From Bradyrhizobium diazoefficiens (GTDB taxonomy: Bacteria; Pseudomonadota; Alphaproteobacteria; Rhizobiales; Xanthobacteraceae), in NCBI RefSeq assembly GCF_016616885.1, contig NZ_CP067102.1, positions 3,314,501 to 3,378,500 on the forward strand: 64,000 nucleotides of DNA. The letters are read 5' to 3'. Under the pieces are notes generated by a model, which was given only the letters and a program-made list of their open reading frames with translations, was not told the origin of the DNA and made no database searches. The position numbers were made by a program, and so were the translations under genes. The number at the start of each line of letters is the position of its first letter. The stretch's first letter is position 1. This document shows positions 15,362-21,928 of this stretch, piece after piece.

Positions 15362-16012
15362 CTATATCTTGGTCAGCCCACAACTCGCTGCCAGCCGCAC
15401 GAGCTGCGCATCCGTGCGCGCGCCGGTCTTGGTCTTGATCAGATAGTGATAGTTCTGGACTGTCTTCACACTGAGATTGAGATGCGTTGCGATCTGTTCG
15501 GTCGTGGCGCCGCCGGCGAACTGGCGCAAAATCTCGATCTCGCGCTCGCCCAATTGATCCAGCGCTGAGCCTGTCGACAGGCTGTCCTCGGCCAGCACAT
15601 GCGCGATGTCGTCGCTCATGGCGCGCTCGCCGCGCGCGACGCTGCGGATGGCATTGACGACGGCGGAAGGCGCGCTGCTCTTGGTGACGAAGCCGGAAGC
15701 GCCGGCACTGAAGGCGGCTTTCACCAGCACGGCCTCGTTGTGCATGGTGAAGACGAGGATCCGCGCCCGCGGATTGCGCGCGCGGATATTGCGGATCGCC
15801 TCGAGGCCGCTGGCGCCGGGCATCGAGATGTCCATCACGATGACGTCGGGATCGTGTGTCTTGAAGGCGCCGTAGGCGTCCGCGGCGTTGTCGGCTTCCG
15901 CCACGACGTGGAGATCGCCCTGGCTCTCCAGCACGCGCCGGTAGCCTTGCCGCACGATCGGGTGGTCGTCGACCAGCAGCACCGAGATACCTGTTGCTGC
16001 GACCTCGTTCAT
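15362..16012 (-). CDS. NarL/LuxR-type response regulator of a MoxYX-like system
   Basis: 216 residues. Receiver domain at about 10-125: VLLVDDHPIVRQG, phosphoacceptor Asp61 in VIVMDISMPG, then LVFTMHNE and GFVTKSSAP. A LuxR-type DNA-binding helix-turn-helix follows (LGEREIEILRQFAGG, TTEQIATHLNLSVKTVQNY). The start at 16012 lies eight bases after the kinase stop, with GAGG upstream, so it is translated with the kinase. It should act as a transcription factor phosphorylated by that kinase. The divergent TolQ-like cassette is a plausible target, by position only. Confidence 0.92.
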   Translation of the reverse strand: MNEVAATGISVLLVDDHPIVRQGYRRVLESQGDLHVVAEADNAADAYGAFKTHDPDVIVMDISMPGASGLEAIRNIRARNPRARILVFTMHNEAVLVKAAFSAGASGFVTKSSAPSAVVNAIRSVARGERAMSDDIAHVLAEDSLSTGSALDQLGEREIEILRQFAGGATTEQIATHLNLSVKTVQNYHYLIKTKTGARTDAQLVRLAASCGLTKI

Positions 16013-16019
16013 GCCGGCC

Positions 16020-17390
16020 TCATGCGGCGAGCGGTATTGTTGCAGCGACGCTGAGGCCGCGGGTTGCGGGTAGGATCGTGAGCGAGCCGCCGGCGGCCGC
16101 CAGGCGCTCGCGGATGCCGGTGAGGCCGAAGCCGGTCGAGCGCGCCACGCGTGCCGCATCGCCGCCGCCGTCGTCCTCGACGCGGATCAGAAGCGCATCG
16201 TCGTCGCCCGCGCACCGCTCGACGTGCAACGAAATCTCGCGGGCCGCACCGTGGCGCAGCGCATTGGTCAGGCATTCCTGGGCGACGCGATAGGCGGTCG
16301 TGGCGGCTGGACCGCTGATGTCGGTGAGGTCGCCCTTGAGATCGAGCTGGATCGTCGGCTGTGTCGCGCTCTGCGAGCGCCAGCTGTCGACGAGGTTGAC
16401 GAGGCTGGCTTCCAGCCCGAATTCCTCGGGCAGGGGATTGCGCAGGCGCTTCAGCGCGTCGCGCAGCGAGGCCATCAGATGGTGCGTGGCCTGCGAGATC
16501 ATGCGCGCGTCCTGCGCGATGCCATGGTCCTTGCACTGCTGCGCGCTCGCCATCTCGATCGTGTTGGCGAACGCGAGGATGGCCGAGAGATTTTGCCCGA
16601 ACTCGTCATGCAGCTCGCGCGCGAGCGCGCGCCGCTCGTCGTCGCGAATCTCGATCAGGCGACGCGTCAGCGCCGCGCGCTGTTCGGTGGCCTCTTCCAG
16701 TCGGCTCCCAAGCGCATCGACGGCGTCGCCGATCATGGCAAGCTCCATCGAGCGGAAGCGCGGCAGTCTTGTACGATATTGGCCGCGCGCCATTCGTTGC
16801 AGGGCAAGCACAATGGTCCGCGCCGGTGCCAGCGTGTGCGCGATCGCGAGCGAGGCGAGCAGCGCGATCGCGGCCGCCATCAGCAGCGCGACGTCGATCA
16901 CGTTGAGAATGTACTCCCAGGCGAGCGAGATTGCGGCCGCTTCATCCGGGGTCGCTACCACCGTTCCGGCCGCCGCGGCGCGGGGGCTGACGGGCCGCAC
17001 CACCTCGGCGTGGCTGCCGAGGAAGGTCGGTACGATGGCCGCGAACCAGTGCGGCGGCGCCCTGCCGATCCCCTGGCTCTGGCCGCAGAGCGGCTTTTCG
17101 AATGCAGTCGCCGGCTGGAACTCGACGCACACACCGGGCGAGATCAGCTTCATCGTCTCCAGCGTCCGCCACTCCGGAACCGGCATGAGATGGTCGCGCA
17201 TTCTGCTGCTGCGCAGCAAGAGTTCGTGCCAGTACAGTCCCTGAAGCGCCTGCGCGACCCGCTGCGCGGAGGCCGCAGTCGCCCGGTCGACGCTGCGGTA
17301 GGCATCGAACGTGGCCCACACGGTCGCTGCGCCCAGGCACAGCGCAACGATGACAAGCAGACGGGCGACGAGCTGAAGCACCAGGCGCAT
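16020..17390 (-). CDS. Membrane histidine kinase, HisKA_3 type (MoxY-like)
   Basis: 456 residues. Transmembrane helix at about 8-28, a periplasmic domain to about 155 resembling the LapD/MoxY N-terminal domain, a second helix at about 162-188, a HAMP-like linker, then the NarX-type dimerisation helix ERRALARELHDEFGQNLSAI with His261. The C-terminal ATPase domain shows the N box (AQECLTNALRHGA) and G boxes (VEDDGGG, GFGLTGIRERL). It pairs with the response regulator immediately downstream. The gene is divergent, with a 197-base gap, from the TolQ-like cassette. Confidence 0.9.
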   Translation of the reverse strand: MRLVLQLVARLLVIVALCLGAATVWATFDAYRSVDRATAASAQRVAQALQGLYWHELLLRSSRMRDHLMPVPEWRTLETMKLISPGVCVEFQPATAFEKPLCGQSQGIGRAPPHWFAAIVPTFLGSHAEVVRPVSPRAAAAGTVVATPDEAAAISLAWEYILNVIDVALLMAAAIALLASLAIAHTLAPARTIVLALQRMARGQYRTRLPRFRSMELAMIGDAVDALGSRLEEATEQRAALTRRLIEIRDDERRALARELHDEFGQNLSAILAFANTIEMASAQQCKDHGIAQDARMISQATHHLMASLRDALKRLRNPLPEEFGLEASLVNLVDSWRSQSATQPTIQLDLKGDLTDISGPAATTAYRVAQECLTNALRHGAAREISLHVERCAGDDDALLIRVEDDGGGDAARVARSTGFGLTGIRERLAAAGGSLTILPATRGLSVAATIPLAA

Positions 17391-17587: not shown

Positions 17588-18358
17588 ATGAGTTCGATGA
17601 CGATTGGACCGATTGCGAACACCGCGACCGACCCATCCGAGCGCAGCGCGCTCCTGTTCTGGATGATCTTCACGGGGCTATCGATCTTTGCCGTCGTGCT
17701 GCTGTGGCGGTTCGGCCTGATCCATCTGATGCTGACCTCGGATCGGACCTATATTTCGAGTGTGATCGCGGTGCTCTATATCCTGACCTGCGGTCACTGC
17801 TTCCTGCGCACACGGGCGATCGCCCGTGAGGGGGCGGCTGCACGGCGTTGCCGCGCGGTGCTGGCGGCGCCCGACGGCAGCAGGGTGCTCGATGCGAGCG
17901 CACCCGCGCTGCCGCGCGGGCTGGTGCGCGATCATATCGAGAGCCTTGTGACGAAGGCCGCGGCGCAGGGCTACCGGCCGGTCGACCAGACGCTCTTGCT
18001 GCGGACACTGGCCGACCGCCTGCGCGGCTCCAACGGGTTCGGTGCCTTCGTCTCCGATACGCTGATGAAGCTCGGGCTGCTCGGCACCATCATCGGCTTT
18101 ATCATCATGCTGGCGCCGATTGCGGGGCTGGATGCCGCCGACAAGGTCGCGATGAGGTCCTCGATGGGGCTGATGAGCGACGGCATGGCGGTTGCGATGT
18201 ACACGACGCTGGCGGGTCTCGTCGGTTCCATCCTGGTCCGCATCCAGTACTACATGCTCGATTCCGCGACCCAGCGGGTGTTCTCCGATGCCGTGGTCCT
18301 GACCGAGACCTATGTGACGCCGGTGCTGGAGCGCAAAGGCGCTGGAACGCCGTCATGA
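17588..18358 (+). CDS. MotA/TolQ/ExbB-type proton channel protein
   Basis: 256 residues with four hydrophobic segments: LLFWMIFTGLSIFAVVLL, ISSVIAVLYILTCGHCFL, and the pair LGLLGTIIGFIIMLAPI and MYTTLAGLVGSILVRIQYYML. The last two form the ExbB/TolQ core, with the family's GLLGTIIG and T-L-A-G-L motifs. Such proteins form the stator of proton-driven machines in the inner membrane. GGAG lies eight bases before the ATG at 17588. It overlaps the next gene by four bases. No ExbD/TolR or MotB gene is adjacent, which is unusual. Confidence 0.88.
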   Translation: MSSMTIGPIANTATDPSERSALLFWMIFTGLSIFAVVLLWRFGLIHLMLTSDRTYISSVIAVLYILTCGHCFLRTRAIAREGAAARRCRAVLAAPDGSRVLDASAPALPRGLVRDHIESLVTKAAAQGYRPVDQTLLLRTLADRLRGSNGFGAFVSDTLMKLGLLGTIIGFIIMLAPIAGLDAADKVAMRSSMGLMSDGMAVAMYTTLAGLVGSILVRIQYYMLDSATQRVFSDAVVLTETYVTPVLERKGAGTPS

Positions 18359-19026
18359 TGGATGATTTCGGTCTCTATCCGCGCGAGGAGCCGTTCGATC
18401 CCTTGGGCGTGATGCTGTTCAAGGCGCTCCAGGTGGTCGCCTTCCTGTTCTTCCTCGCGCTGCTCGCGGTCTCTCCCGACGCCAAGGAAGGCAAGATCGA
18501 CTCCAAGGCCGAGTTCATGATCACGCTGGACTGGCCCGACAACCATCCTGACGATCTCGACCTGTTCGTGCAGGATCCCGCCGGCAACATCGCCTGGTAT
18601 CGCCATCGCGAGGCCGGTTTCCTCACGCTCGATCGCGACGATCGCGGAGGCGCCAACGACTTCATCATGGTCAACGGCAAGAAGATCGCTTCACCCATCC
18701 GCGAGGAGATCGTGACGGTGCGCGGCATCGTCGCCGGCGAATACACCGTCAACGTCTCGCATTTCGTCGCCACGACCGGCGAGCCCGTGACGGCCAATGT
18801 GAAGGTGCAGAAACTCAATCCGACTGCGCAGGTGGTCTTCGACAACAAATTCACGCTCAACCATACTGGCGACGAGAAGACCGCGGTGCGGTTCCGGCTC
18901 GATACCGAAGGCAAGGTGGTCAATGTGGACCAGCGGCCGAAATCGCTGCTGGAAACCTTCCGCAGCACCTGGCGCAACGGCGCTGACGTCGATCCGAAGA
19001 CCGGTGTGAGGATCCGTCGTGATTAA
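18355..19026 (+). CDS. One-helix membrane protein with a DUF2135/YfaP-like periplasmic domain
   Basis: 223 residues. A short cytoplasmic N-terminus and one helix (VMLFKALQVVAFLFFLALLAV, about 19-39) lead to a periplasmic beta domain. It carries LDWPDNHPDDLDLFVQDPAG and FLTLDRDDRGGANDF, then VRGIVAGEYTVNVSHF. The pattern 'xDLDLxVxDPxG ... LdrDdrgG' is that of DUF2135-type beta-sandwiches. Topology matches ExbD/TolR (one helix, periplasmic domain), so it may replace them as partner of the channel protein. The start overlaps the upstream stop (ATGA), and its own end overlaps the next gene by eight bases. Confidence 0.75.
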   Translation: MMDDFGLYPREEPFDPLGVMLFKALQVVAFLFFLALLAVSPDAKEGKIDSKAEFMITLDWPDNHPDDLDLFVQDPAGNIAWYRHREAGFLTLDRDDRGGANDFIMVNGKKIASPIREEIVTVRGIVAGEYTVNVSHFVATTGEPVTANVKVQKLNPTAQVVFDNKFTLNHTGDEKTAVRFRLDTEGKVVNVDQRPKSLLETFRSTWRNGADVDPKTGVRIRRD

Positions 19027-19624
19027 TCTGCAGGCGGTCATCCTCACTTTGTCGGTCGCCTATGCCGTGATCGGCGCGCTGCTGCTGGTCGTGCTGGTCT
19101 ATGCACGGCTGCACTGGTCGCTGAAGGCGGTCGCGGTGGTGGTGACCAGCGCCTTCTATGTCGTCAGCTTCACGGAAATGCGCGGGCTGCTCGGCTGGGC
19201 CAGCAGCGACAGGCTGCCCACCGCGTTCAAGCTGCTCAAGGCGCGGATCGTCGAGCCGCATTCGCTGGAGGGCGATCCCGGCTCGATCTATCTGTGGGTC
19301 GAGGAACTCGACGAGGATCACCGTCCGAGCGGCATCCCGCGCGCCTTCCGCGTCCCCTACAACGACACTCTGGCCGACAAGACCCATGCAGCCGAGAACG
19401 AGATCGCGGCGGGCCACCCGCAAGGCGGACGCGCGGCGGACTTCGGCGGCGGCGAGGGCAGCCTGATCGACATGGTCCGGGAATATGTGACGCCCAAGGT
19501 CATCCTCGAGACCAGCGGCGGCGATTCCTCGACCGGGGAGTTCAATGCCCCGCCGGCCGGCGCGCAAGCAGCGGTCTTCACGCCGCTGCCGCCTCCCCGG
19601 ATGCCGCCCAAGGACGAGCAATAG
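19019..19624 (+). CDS. Hypothetical membrane protein of the TolQ-like cassette
   Basis: 201 residues starting with GTG inside the preceding gene. Two hydrophobic helices (LSVAYAVIGALLLVVLVYARL and LKAVAVVVTSAFYVVSFTE) are followed by a hydrophilic region with LLKARIVEPHS, IYLWVEELDEDHRP and IPRAFRVPYN, then a Gly/Pro-rich disordered tail ending PPRMPPKDEQ. The family is not recognised. Tight overlap with the two genes upstream argues for one complex in the inner membrane. A 117-base gap separates it from the next gene. Confidence 0.7.
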   Translation: MINLQAVILTLSVAYAVIGALLLVVLVYARLHWSLKAVAVVVTSAFYVVSFTEMRGLLGWASSDRLPTAFKLLKARIVEPHSLEGDPGSIYLWVEELDEDHRPSGIPRAFRVPYNDTLADKTHAAENEIAAGHPQGGRAADFGGGEGSLIDMVREYVTPKVILETSGGDSSTGEFNAPPAGAQAAVFTPLPPPRMPPKDEQ

Positions 19625-19741
19625 CCTCTTCACCATTGCGCCAGCGTGCCGCTGGTAAACCGCCCCGCGCTGGCGCATCTTGTTGACCTCCCTCAAATTG
19701 GCTTTATCGGCATCGATTAAGAATTTGAGGGTGGAGGGTGC

Positions 19742-20482
19742 GTGCTTCTCGCTGTCTTCTCGGATATCCACGGTAACCGGCAGGCGTTCGAGGCATGCCT
19801 GAAGGCGGCCCGCGCGAAAGGCGCGGAGCGGTTCGTCATGCTCGGCGATTTCGTCGGCTATGGTGCCGATCCGGAATGGGTCGTGGATACCGCGATGGAG
19901 CTGGTTGCCCAGGGCGCCGTCGCCGTCCGTGGCAATCACGATCAGGCGGTGAGCTCCTCGTTGGAGACCATGAACAATGAGGCCCAGATTGCGATCGAAT
20001 GGACGCGCGGACGGCTCGACGCCGCACAGCGCCGGTTTCTTGCCGAGCTGCCGATGCTCGTCGAGGACGGCGACCGTCTGTTCGTGCACTCGGAAGCCTC
20101 TCATCCCCAGCGCTGGCACTACATTCGCTCGACGGCGGATGCTGCCAAGAGCCTGATATCGACCCCCGCCCACGTGACCTTCTGCGGCCACATTCACCGT
20201 CCCGCGCTCTATTCGATGTCGGTAACGGCGAAGATGACAGGCCTCGTGCCCAAGACCGATGTGTCCGTGCCACTCCTGCGCGGGCGGCAATGGCTGGCCG
20301 TGCTCGGCGCGGTCGGCCAGCCGCGTGACGGTGATCCATCGGCGGCTTTCGTGCTGTTCGACACGATCTCATGCCAGATCACGTATTGCCGCGCGGCCTA
20401 TGACGTCGCGAGCGCGGCGAACCGGATTCGCGAGAACGGCCTGCCGCATCGACTCGCCGACCGGCTGTCGGAGGGGCGCTAG
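19742..20482 (+). CDS. Calcineurin-like metallophosphoesterase
   Basis: 246 residues of the YfcE/MPE type. Metal-site motifs in order: FSDIHGNRQAF, LGDFVGYGADP, RGNHDQAV, FVHSEASHP and FCGHIHRPA. The enzyme hydrolyses phosphomono- or diesters; its substrate may be a protein, nucleotide or small molecule. The GTG start at 19742 follows GGAGGG. It ends six bases before the Ser/Thr kinase gene, so phosphatase and kinase are made together, which suggests opposing activities on one target. Confidence 0.88.
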   Translation: MLLAVFSDIHGNRQAFEACLKAARAKGAERFVMLGDFVGYGADPEWVVDTAMELVAQGAVAVRGNHDQAVSSSLETMNNEAQIAIEWTRGRLDAAQRRFLAELPMLVEDGDRLFVHSEASHPQRWHYIRSTADAAKSLISTPAHVTFCGHIHRPALYSMSVTAKMTGLVPKTDVSVPLLRGRQWLAVLGAVGQPRDGDPSAAFVLFDTISCQITYCRAAYDVASAANRIRENGLPHRLADRLSEGR

Positions 20483-20488
20483 AGACCG

Positions 20489-21928
20489 ATGCCGAAACCC
20501 CTGGTCAAACCCGGCGCCGTGATCGACGGCTACACCATCGGCGAATGCGTGCATGCCGGCGGCATGGCGACGCTCTGGACCGTCACCCATGCCGGCATTG
20601 ACGCGCCGCTGCTGATGAAGATTCCGAGAGCGTCCGAGGGTGAGGACCCGGCGGCGATCGTCTCCTTCGAGATGGAGATGATGATCCTGCCCCGGCTGAC
20701 AGGACCCCATGTGCCCCACTGCTTCGGTACCGGCGATTTCGCGCATCAGGCCTACGCCGTGATCGAGCGCATTTCGGGGACAACCCTCTACAAGCGGCTG
20801 CCCGACCTGCCGCTGCCTTACGACGAAGTTCGGCTGATCGTCGCGAAGATCGCGACCGCGCTCGCCGATTTGCACCGGCAGAACGTGATCCATCACGACA
20901 TCAAGCCGAGCAGCATCATGTTCCGTGAGAGCGGTGATGCGGTGCTGATCGATTACGGCCTCTCGCACCACGATCATCTGCCAGATCTGTTGCAGGCGGA
21001 GTTTCGCCTGCCTTACGGCACCGCACCCTATATGGCGCCGGAACGGCTGCTTGGGGTCCGCGACGATCCGCGAAGCGATTTGTTTTCGCTCGGCGTGCTG
21101 CTGTATTTTTTCACCACCGGCGAACGTCCCTTCGGCGAGGGCGAGACGTTGCGCGCGATGCGGCGAAGGCTGTGGCGCGATCCGTATCCGCCGCGTGCGC
21201 TCCGCAGCGACTATCCGCCCTGGCTCCAGGAGGTGGTGCTGCGGTGCATCGAGATCGAGCCGGACTGGCGTTATCCGACCGCGGCCCAGCTCGCCTTTGA
21301 TCTGACCCATCCAGACCAGGTCAAGCTCACTGCGCGCGCGGAGCGGATGAAGCGCGATCCCCTCAGCGTCGCCTGGCGGCGCCGTTTCAACCCCGACGTC
21401 AAGCCACAGGGCGCGAGATCGGATCTTGCGACGCAAATCGCGCAGAGCCCGATCGTCACGGTCGCGCTCGACACGGCGGAAGGTGCGCCGGAACTGAACG
21501 AGTCGCTGCGGGTCACCACGGAACGCATCCTGGCGACGCTGCCGTCAGCGCGGCTCGCCTGCGTCAATGTGTTGAAGCTTAATCGCATCGCTATCGACAA
21601 GACGCTGGACGAGCAGGGCTCCAACAAGCACATCGACCGCCTCGTCGCGCTCCGGCATTGGGCGACGCCGTTGAAGCTGGACGAGAGCCGGCTGTCGGTT
21701 CATGTGCTGGAGGCCGTCGATCCCGCGGCTGCGTTGTTGGAGTTCGCCGAGGTCAACCAGGTCGACCATGTCATCATCGGCGCGCGGCAGGGCTCGTTCA
21801 GGCGCACGCTGCTCGGCAGCGTGTCGGCCAAGGTGGCTGCGGAGGCGGCCTGCACCGTCACTGTGGTGCGGCCGCCGCGGATGGCTGCGGATGCGGGAGA
21901 AGCCGACGCGGGCGAGGCGGCGGGATAA
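20489..21928 (+). CDS. Ser/Thr protein kinase fused to a universal stress protein domain
   Basis: 479 residues. Kinase domain at about 12-275: ATP Lys44 (LLMKIPR), catalytic loop HHDIKPSSIMF with Asp137 and Lys139, metal Asp155 in IDYGL, and APE in APYMAPERL. The usual Asn of the catalytic loop is Ser142, and the glycine loop is degenerate. From about residue 325 a USP domain follows, with the nucleotide-binding pattern VIIGARQGSFRRTLLGSVS. No transmembrane helix is seen. Joined with the phosphoesterase upstream, it probably signals stress or nucleotide status. The substrate is unknown; the TolQ-like cassette is nearby. Confidence 0.88.
   Translation: MPKPLVKPGAVIDGYTIGECVHAGGMATLWTVTHAGIDAPLLMKIPRASEGEDPAAIVSFEMEMMILPRLTGPHVPHCFGTGDFAHQAYAVIERISGTTLYKRLPDLPLPYDEVRLIVAKIATALADLHRQNVIHHDIKPSSIMFRESGDAVLIDYGLSHHDHLPDLLQAEFRLPYGTAPYMAPERLLGVRDDPRSDLFSLGVLLYFFTTGERPFGEGETLRAMRRRLWRDPYPPRALRSDYPPWLQEVVLRCIEIEPDWRYPTAAQLAFDLTHPDQVKLTARAERMKRDPLSVAWRRRFNPDVKPQGARSDLATQIAQSPIVTVALDTAEGAPELNESLRVTTERILATLPSARLACVNVLKLNRIAIDKTLDEQGSNKHIDRLVALRHWATPLKLDESRLSVHVLEAVDPAAALLEFAEVNQVDHVIIGARQGSFRRTLLGSVSAKVAAEAACTVTVVRPPRMAADAGEADAGEAAG

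Follow-up and report, generated by a model that had tools for sequence, protein, structure and literature searches.

A three-gene cassette with a MotA/TolQ/ExbB-type channel and a predicted TerD-like partner in Bradyrhizobium diazoefficiens and its relatives

The closest described relatives of the locus analysed here are motors of the 5:2 kind that run on the proton-motive force, such as MotAB, TolQR, ExbBD and GldLM. In ExbBD, the aspartate of ExbD is described as essential together with Thr148 and Thr181 of ExbB (PMC12905483); in GldLM, E49 of GldL is reported to be essential (PMC8986121) and a central arginine of GldM to meet a GldL glutamate (PMC12239597). PMC12204202 further describes a TolQ-like gene that occurs without ExbD or TolR and has a vWA-domain partner with an aspartate in its pore helix. 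Here we analyse three adjacent genes, A, B and C, of Bradyrhizobium diazoefficiens. They lie in the window, i.e., the whole stretch of 64,000 nucleotides under study (C1:3314501-3378500, within a genome of 8.09 Mb), in which coordinates refer to the plus strand unless stated otherwise. An earlier note, made from the sequence alone, had placed these genes and two that follow, D and E, correctly, and had suggested that the five might form one proton-driven, possibly phosphorylation-controlled system. We consider it probable, with clear reservations, that A-B-C represents a separate branch among the 5:2 motors, whose acid has been re-wired in the clade of the window, and that D and E stand apart from it.

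A conserved unit with an unusual partner protein

Gene A (17588..18358), with an ATG start at 17588 and an AGGAG sequence 8 bases upstream, encodes a channel protein of 256 residues, which was also compared across 74 taxa. Its match to PF01618 (34.9 bits; cut-off, 22.9) places it in the MotA/TolQ/ExbB family. Hydropathy indicated four hydrophobic segments (21-39, 55-73, about 155-180 and 199-219); four is the count of MotA, while TolQ has three. Gene B overlaps the end of gene A (18352..19026, starting with GTG at 18352 or ATG at 18355) and encodes a protein with a single hydrophobic segment (20-38, by hydropathy) and a predicted periplasmic beta-sandwich. Of the TolQ-like topology first proposed for the pair, the one-helix protein in the place of ExbD or TolR was borne out, but the channel does not have the three segments of TolQ. 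Gene C (19019..19624, GTG start at 19019, 8-base overlap with B) encodes 201 residues that, in an AlphaFold model with a mean predicted local distance difference test (pLDDT) score of 80, form a helix hairpin (2-28, 33-57), a small alpha/beta domain and a low-confidence tail of ~50 residues. The two predicted N-terminal helices agree with its earlier description as a second membrane protein, and no TonB-like fold was found in it. Neither B nor C reached the cut-off of any family in Pfam-type and NCBIfam profile searches.

A search of 60 relatives, the window genome included, detected B in 33, namely the window genome, 30 of its 35 congeners, and two genomes of other families (G037 and G057); in all but two of the 30 B-bearing congeners (28), its identity is 83-95%. 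Strong B profile matches occurred in 40 of 288 evenly drawn genomes of the class besides the window's, while samples of the order and the phylum, each counting the window genome, gave matches in 29 of 249 and in 18 of 299 genomes (E 0.001, four of them weak), respectively. Among the best 120 database relatives of B, the named ones were Bradyrhizobium. A scan of named genomes confirmed 402 relatives, the 80 best of which were used. Their labels are Alphaproteobacteria, SAR86 and other Gammaproteobacteria, plus a single Burkholderiaceae and a metagenome-assembled genome of Phycisphaeraceae; Hydrogenophaga and Geminicoccaceae were among the named B protein hits. Gene order was counted in 174 loci, grouped into 58 clusters at 75% B identity after five loci with a solitary B and four with weak hits had been left out. 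The three genes follow each other as A-B-C on one strand in 54 clusters, a single cluster has the order A-C-B, and three clusters lack one of the genes, two of these three (L140 and L180) reaching a contig edge. Together with the presence of B in most congeners, this indicates that the arrangement is more than chance, and it supports the earlier view of a stable trio, other than Tol, Exb or Mot, in which a channel is joined to an unusual one-helix partner.

The periplasmic domain of B, as modelled, has the TerD fold. It carries the motif 'DLDLFVQDPAG' that had drawn attention to it, and two groups of conserved acids: Asp68 and Asp70 of the beta-sandwich (Asp68-Leu-Asp70, 18553..18561) are invariant in 53 of 53 B proteins, as is Asp96 of an acidic loop (Arg95-Asp96-Asp97, 18634..18642, at a pLDDT of only 67), whose Arg95 and Asp97 recur in at least 90% of them. 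Both groups are candidate metal ligands, putatively for calcium as in TerD. That ExbD or TolR might be the regular partner, which the earlier note had named as a point that would speak against it, was not seen: ExbD (PF02472) was absent from the 14 families touched by the 53 B proteins at E 0.1, and the ExbD-like protein of this genome had no relative in the open frames of L008-L191 and the window, most of these loci covering ~1.5 kb on each side. The label 'DUF2135-like' given to B holds in part. Nine of the 53 B proteins, the window's not among them, touched PF09906 (DUF2135) below its cut-off at E up to 0.1 (best E 0.0016). Conversely, a model built from the 53 B rows alone scored a DUF2135 protein, L089 (itself 37.8 bits to PF09906), at 31.5 bits and gave 18.2 and 16.4 bits to two further proteins that PF09906 had detected. 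The profile link is thus weak but real-looking; none of the B proteins reached the PF09906 cut-off for membership.

Several loci depart from the standard arrangement. Solitary B paralogs, with neither A nor C in the stretch examined, were seen in L127, L134, L143, L150 and L152, and two of these (L150 and L152) sit amid genes resembling those of ATP-binding cassette (ABC) systems linked to pyrroloquinoline quinone (PQQ). L089-L092, the four weak-hit loci, hold B-like domains in open frames of ~1000 residues or longer, one of them a DUF2135 protein above cut-off, and no channel gene was recognised in the stretch examined. One genome (G037, loci L038 and L039) carries cassettes of both type 1 and the FRD type, the latter a divergent second branch. 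The contig labelled Phycisphaeraceae (L119) has the same cassette match scores as L118, a Bauldia contig that shares its sample prefix, and its label probably stems from faulty binning, not from a cassette in a planctomycete.

The ion site and its change in the clade of the window

In A, Thr167 (18086..18088, in GLLGT) and Thr207 (18206..18208) occupy places that, in an alignment by eye, are equivalent to those of ExbB Thr148 and Thr181, respectively. Across the 74 taxa, the first column holds Thr in 70 rows (Lys in two, Asn in one, one row truncated) and the second Thr in all. By this alignment, the two channel-lining threonines of the MotA/TolQ/ExbB family are present in the window's A. In most sampled relatives, the helix of B reads D-P/A-F-T-D-LLFN-ALLGF and aligns with TPMVD-VMLV of the ExbD-like protein of this genome, which puts position 20 of B where ExbD and TolR have their helix aspartate. 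This position is Asp in 50 of the 74 taxa, Val in 21 and Ala in three. The window's B, with Val20 (18409..18411), lacks the pore-helix aspartate that is typical of TolQR and ExbBD; the earlier reading as a proton-driven machine, plausible for the family, had overlooked this for the window's own version.

The valine does not stand alone. One helical turn further on, B has Lys24 (18421..18423), and a lysine four residues past position 20 is found in 21 of 21 Val taxa and in 0 of the 53 others. Nine residues before the last-helix threonine, A has Asp198 (18179..18181), at the start of its last helix (MSDGMAVAMYTT), and an Asp or Glu at this site accompanies the Val/Lys state of B in 20 of 21 taxa, as against 8 of 50 Asp taxa, all with Glu, and none of the three Ala taxa. 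Given that B exchanged Asp for Val and Asn for Lys, and that A has an Asp or Glu in its last helix, the protonatable acid has probably moved from the partner to the channel in the clade of the window. In a quick tree of 67 taxa, for which the ion-site columns were excluded and seven of the 74 taxa (near-duplicates and one truncated row) dropped, all Val taxa, i.e., Bradyrhizobium, Tardiphaga, Hyphomicrobium, Beijerinckiaceae and others, lie on one side of one branch (Shimodaira-Hasegawa-like approximate likelihood ratio test, SH-aLRT, 99). The tree itself gives no direction of change; from its spread and its presence in ExbD, Asp would be the older state. As read from this tree, the one re-wiring event has been held for a long time. 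The exchange of Asp for Ala in B of L062, L157 and L187, with a lysine seven residues on, is a second, separate change. A further charge change at the site was observed in L084-L086, from another class, where the first pore threonine of A is Lys (GLLGKVIG) and the Asp of B is kept; the B protein of L085 has named hits in Hydrogenophaga.

Linkage to PQQ enzymes, proposed function and alternatives

Genes that recur next to A-B-C encode PQQ-dependent alcohol dehydrogenases and the components of their ABC system; representatives of these scored above the cut-offs of TIGR03075, TIGR03863 and TIGR03866. A neighbour was called when phmmer matched it to a single representative, at E 1e-15 for the dehydrogenase and at 1e-8 for genes of the ABC system, among which beta-propeller proteins were counted. 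A PQQ-type gene lies within 6 kb in 51 of the best 80 named loci, a list that holds close kin and the five solitary-B loci (2/5 positive) and in which only 52 loci span 4.5 kb on both sides. By type, these are 47 of 62 Asp/Asn loci, two of two Ala loci and two of 16 Val/Lys loci. At the level of whole genomes in the class, a PQQ enzyme is present in 19 of 21 with a type-1 cassette, all typed by sequence, compared to 51 of the 248 genomes lacking a strong cassette (p = 1.4e-10, uncorrected for kinship; genomes G187, G253, G282 and G337, with weak B hits, being counted as cassette-free). At least one PQQ-positive genome occurs in 11 of 12 type-1 families, and the enzyme gene lies within 5 kb of B in eight of the 21 type-1 genomes.

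Computation covers the conserved unit, the family of A, the predicted fold of B, both threonines of the channel, the aspartate of the B helix in most of the sampled lineages and the PQQ linkage of type 1; from these we infer stoichiometry and rotation, the binding of a metal, and what the cassette is for. A would assemble into a pentameric channel whose pore holds the helices of two B proteins, and these would set the TerD-like domains in the periplasm in motion; C, by its hairpin and small domain, would be an associated subunit. Its most likely job would be to serve a periplasmic quinoprotein dehydrogenase system through metal loading, assembly or the delivery of components. In the clade of the window, the move of the acid from B to A would be comparable to the pairing of the GldL glutamate with the GldM arginine. 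We hold only tentatively the fullest version of this proposal, namely an envelope motor for the service of PQQ-dependent dehydrogenases, with a four-helix channel and a rotor of TerD fold that may bind calcium or a lanthanide, in one clade of which the rotor Asp was swapped for a channel acid plus a rotor lysine.

A number of observations weigh against the proposed motor. With regard to function, PQQ adjacency is rare in the very clade of the window (the two of 16 Val/Lys loci above), and the copies of the PQQ enzyme in the window genome lie ~0.5 Mb or more from the cassette. FRD-type cassettes show no PQQ association (5/19, p = 0.37; eight of these, L068-L075, typed by sequence and 11 by score alone). 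All 36 genomes of the genus that were searched have PQQ enzymes, with or without B, and the genus therefore offers no test of the linkage. With regard to the ion site, the Glu of A in eight Asp taxa occurs apart from the Val/Lys state, and one Val/Lys taxon, L096, has Gly at the acid site. The re-wiring is a single event on the tree, on which the A-site acid requires eight changes and Asp at that site three, so that there is no statistically independent, i.e., repeated, covariation. As for the fold, the acidic loop of B (91-110) was modelled at a pLDDT of only 66-67, Foldseek alone found nothing significant for B (best E 0.02), and comparison of the TerD profile with B failed (hhalign probability <1%).

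The most serious rival holds that the channel has ceased to be energised in the Bradyrhizobium clade and that A-B-C has become a fixed scaffold or sensor there, in which the Lys/Asp pair only packs helices. A residue described as essential in ExbD (PMC12905483) is lost here, and the lineage of L062, L157 and L187 has likewise given up the aspartate, for Ala. However, both channel threonines, the lysine and mostly the acid have been kept through a deep and diverse clade, and B is highly identical in nearly all B-bearing congeners, which argues for a working site. We regard such a derivative as a possible outcome, clearly below an energised one in our estimate.

The PQQ linkage also suits a dedicated ExbBD-like device that would power the import, across the outer membrane, of a metal or cofactor needed by quinoproteins, e.g., a lanthanide or PQQ, with C in the role of TonB. 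Lanthanide uptake runs through TonB systems, and the low-confidence tail of C could be a linker. The two-helix hairpin of C and its lack of a TonB-like fold speak against this role, the neighbours not having been searched for TonB receptors, and we deem it unlikely.

Less probable still is the five-gene machine first proposed, in which the kinase E and the phosphoesterase D regulate A-B-C. Gene D (19742..20482) encodes a metallophosphoesterase that matches the calcineurin-like families PF12850 (65 bits) and PF00149, and gene E (20489..21928), which pairs with D, a Ser/Thr kinase (Pkinase, 95.5 bits) fused to a C-terminal universal stress protein (USP) domain (Usp, 50.4 bits). The pair lies on the same strand as the cassette, beyond a gap of 117 bases (19625-19741), as the earlier note had stated. 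In the 31 B-bearing genomes of the genus, D directly follows C in 18, and E and B co-occur (E in 30/31 with B versus 2/5 without; p = 0.005, uncorrected for kinship), so that the co-occurrence expected for a joint system is seen for E within Bradyrhizobium. Yet D lies 1.7-9.8 kb from B in nine of the 31 genomes and on another contig in four, where contig breaks may hide adjacency. Present in 35 and 34 of the 60 relatives, respectively, D and E also occur without B (G023 and G025, and as adjacent genes G045 and G054), and B without them (G037 and G057). Outside the genus, the lack of co-occurrence that was to count against the proposal was what we found: even at a looser threshold, D and E appeared in five Bradyrhizobium loci only among the best 80 named loci, whose flanks reach up to 8 kb and are shorter in several. 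Moreover, the closest NCBIfam profile of D is, below its cut-off, a YfcE-type phosphodiesterase, not a protein phosphatase. D-E is a module separate from A-B-C, and we consider their joint action improbable. The match to E contains stop codons in G007, G016, G019, G020 and G023, some of them possibly genuine ends of the gene, and in G031 it is divided between reading frames.

A Zorya-like phage-defence motor, finally, is highly improbable: A has weak ZorA profile matches (E 6e-7 and worse), but its best PADLOC match reaches 26.5 bits over 80 residues and its NCBIfam ZorA score 16.6 of 500 bits, far below the cut-off, no PADLOC model matches B or C at E 1, and the set occurs in 30 of 35 congeners, unlike patchy defence islands.

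Upstream of the cassette, the window holds a divergent sensor histidine kinase (16020..17390, minus strand; best NCBIfam match UhpB, below cut-off) and, adjoining it, a LuxR-type response regulator (15362..16159, minus strand). A similar kinase lies within 6 kb of B in nine of the 16 named Val/Lys loci, and a histidine kinase plus LuxR-type regulator is found near the cassette also in Hyphomicrobium (L148), Tardiphaga (L176), L163 and L178.

Comparison with known systems

We found no description of the A-B-C cassette in the literature searched, outside of which lay subscription papers and preprints. There, DUF2135 together with ExbB gave nothing, TerD together with ExbB gave apparently unrelated work only, and A-B-C was not found named as part of a PQQ alcohol dehydrogenase system (where PMC10848612 speaks of ExbB, it means an ordinary exbB/exbD). 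The cassette is absent from the available parts of two superfamily surveys (PMC12505986 and PMC12204202), the latter of which does not mention PQQ in that part.

If A-B-C is a motor, the 5:2 family also takes in a TerD-like partner and reaches into the quinoprotein metabolism of the periplasm, a route of carbon oxidation in many marine and soil bacteria. The switch from Asp to Val/Lys within one orthologous family would be an experiment of nature on the way in which such motors draw on the proton gradient and, should the rotor-lysine proposal be true, a natural charge inversion.

The free-standing TerD of the PF02342 family is a cytoplasmic protein; B, for all its predicted fold, has no profile similarity to that family, no Pfam match to which was found among the 53 B proteins. 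With DUF2135 of the YfaP type, B shares the weak profile link in both directions, yet the B proteins tested fall below the range of certainty of that family and have a pore-type helix. As in GldLM, the Val/Lys clade combines an acid in the channel protein with a basic residue in the central helix, the acids possibly sitting at equivalent positions; no resemblance between the partner domains was seen. Like the TPH-vWA systems (PMC12204202), A-B-C has a TolQ-like gene without ExbD or TolR and a non-ExbD partner with a pore-helix Asp; theirs, however, is a vWA fold in heterologous pairs, whereas A-B-C has one partner of predicted TerD-like fold, a hairpin gene and the PQQ linkage. With TolQR and ExbBD, the cassette shares the PF01618 channel, its two threonines and a one-helix partner with an Asp in most sampled relatives; it differs in its four-segment channel, in a partner of predicted TerD-like rather than ExbD fold, in a hairpin third gene instead of TonB or TolA and, in the clade of the window, in Val for Asp. 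The PQQ alcohol dehydrogenase systems (TIGR03075, TIGR03863 and TIGR03866), finally, are frequent neighbours of type-1 cassettes and co-occur with them.

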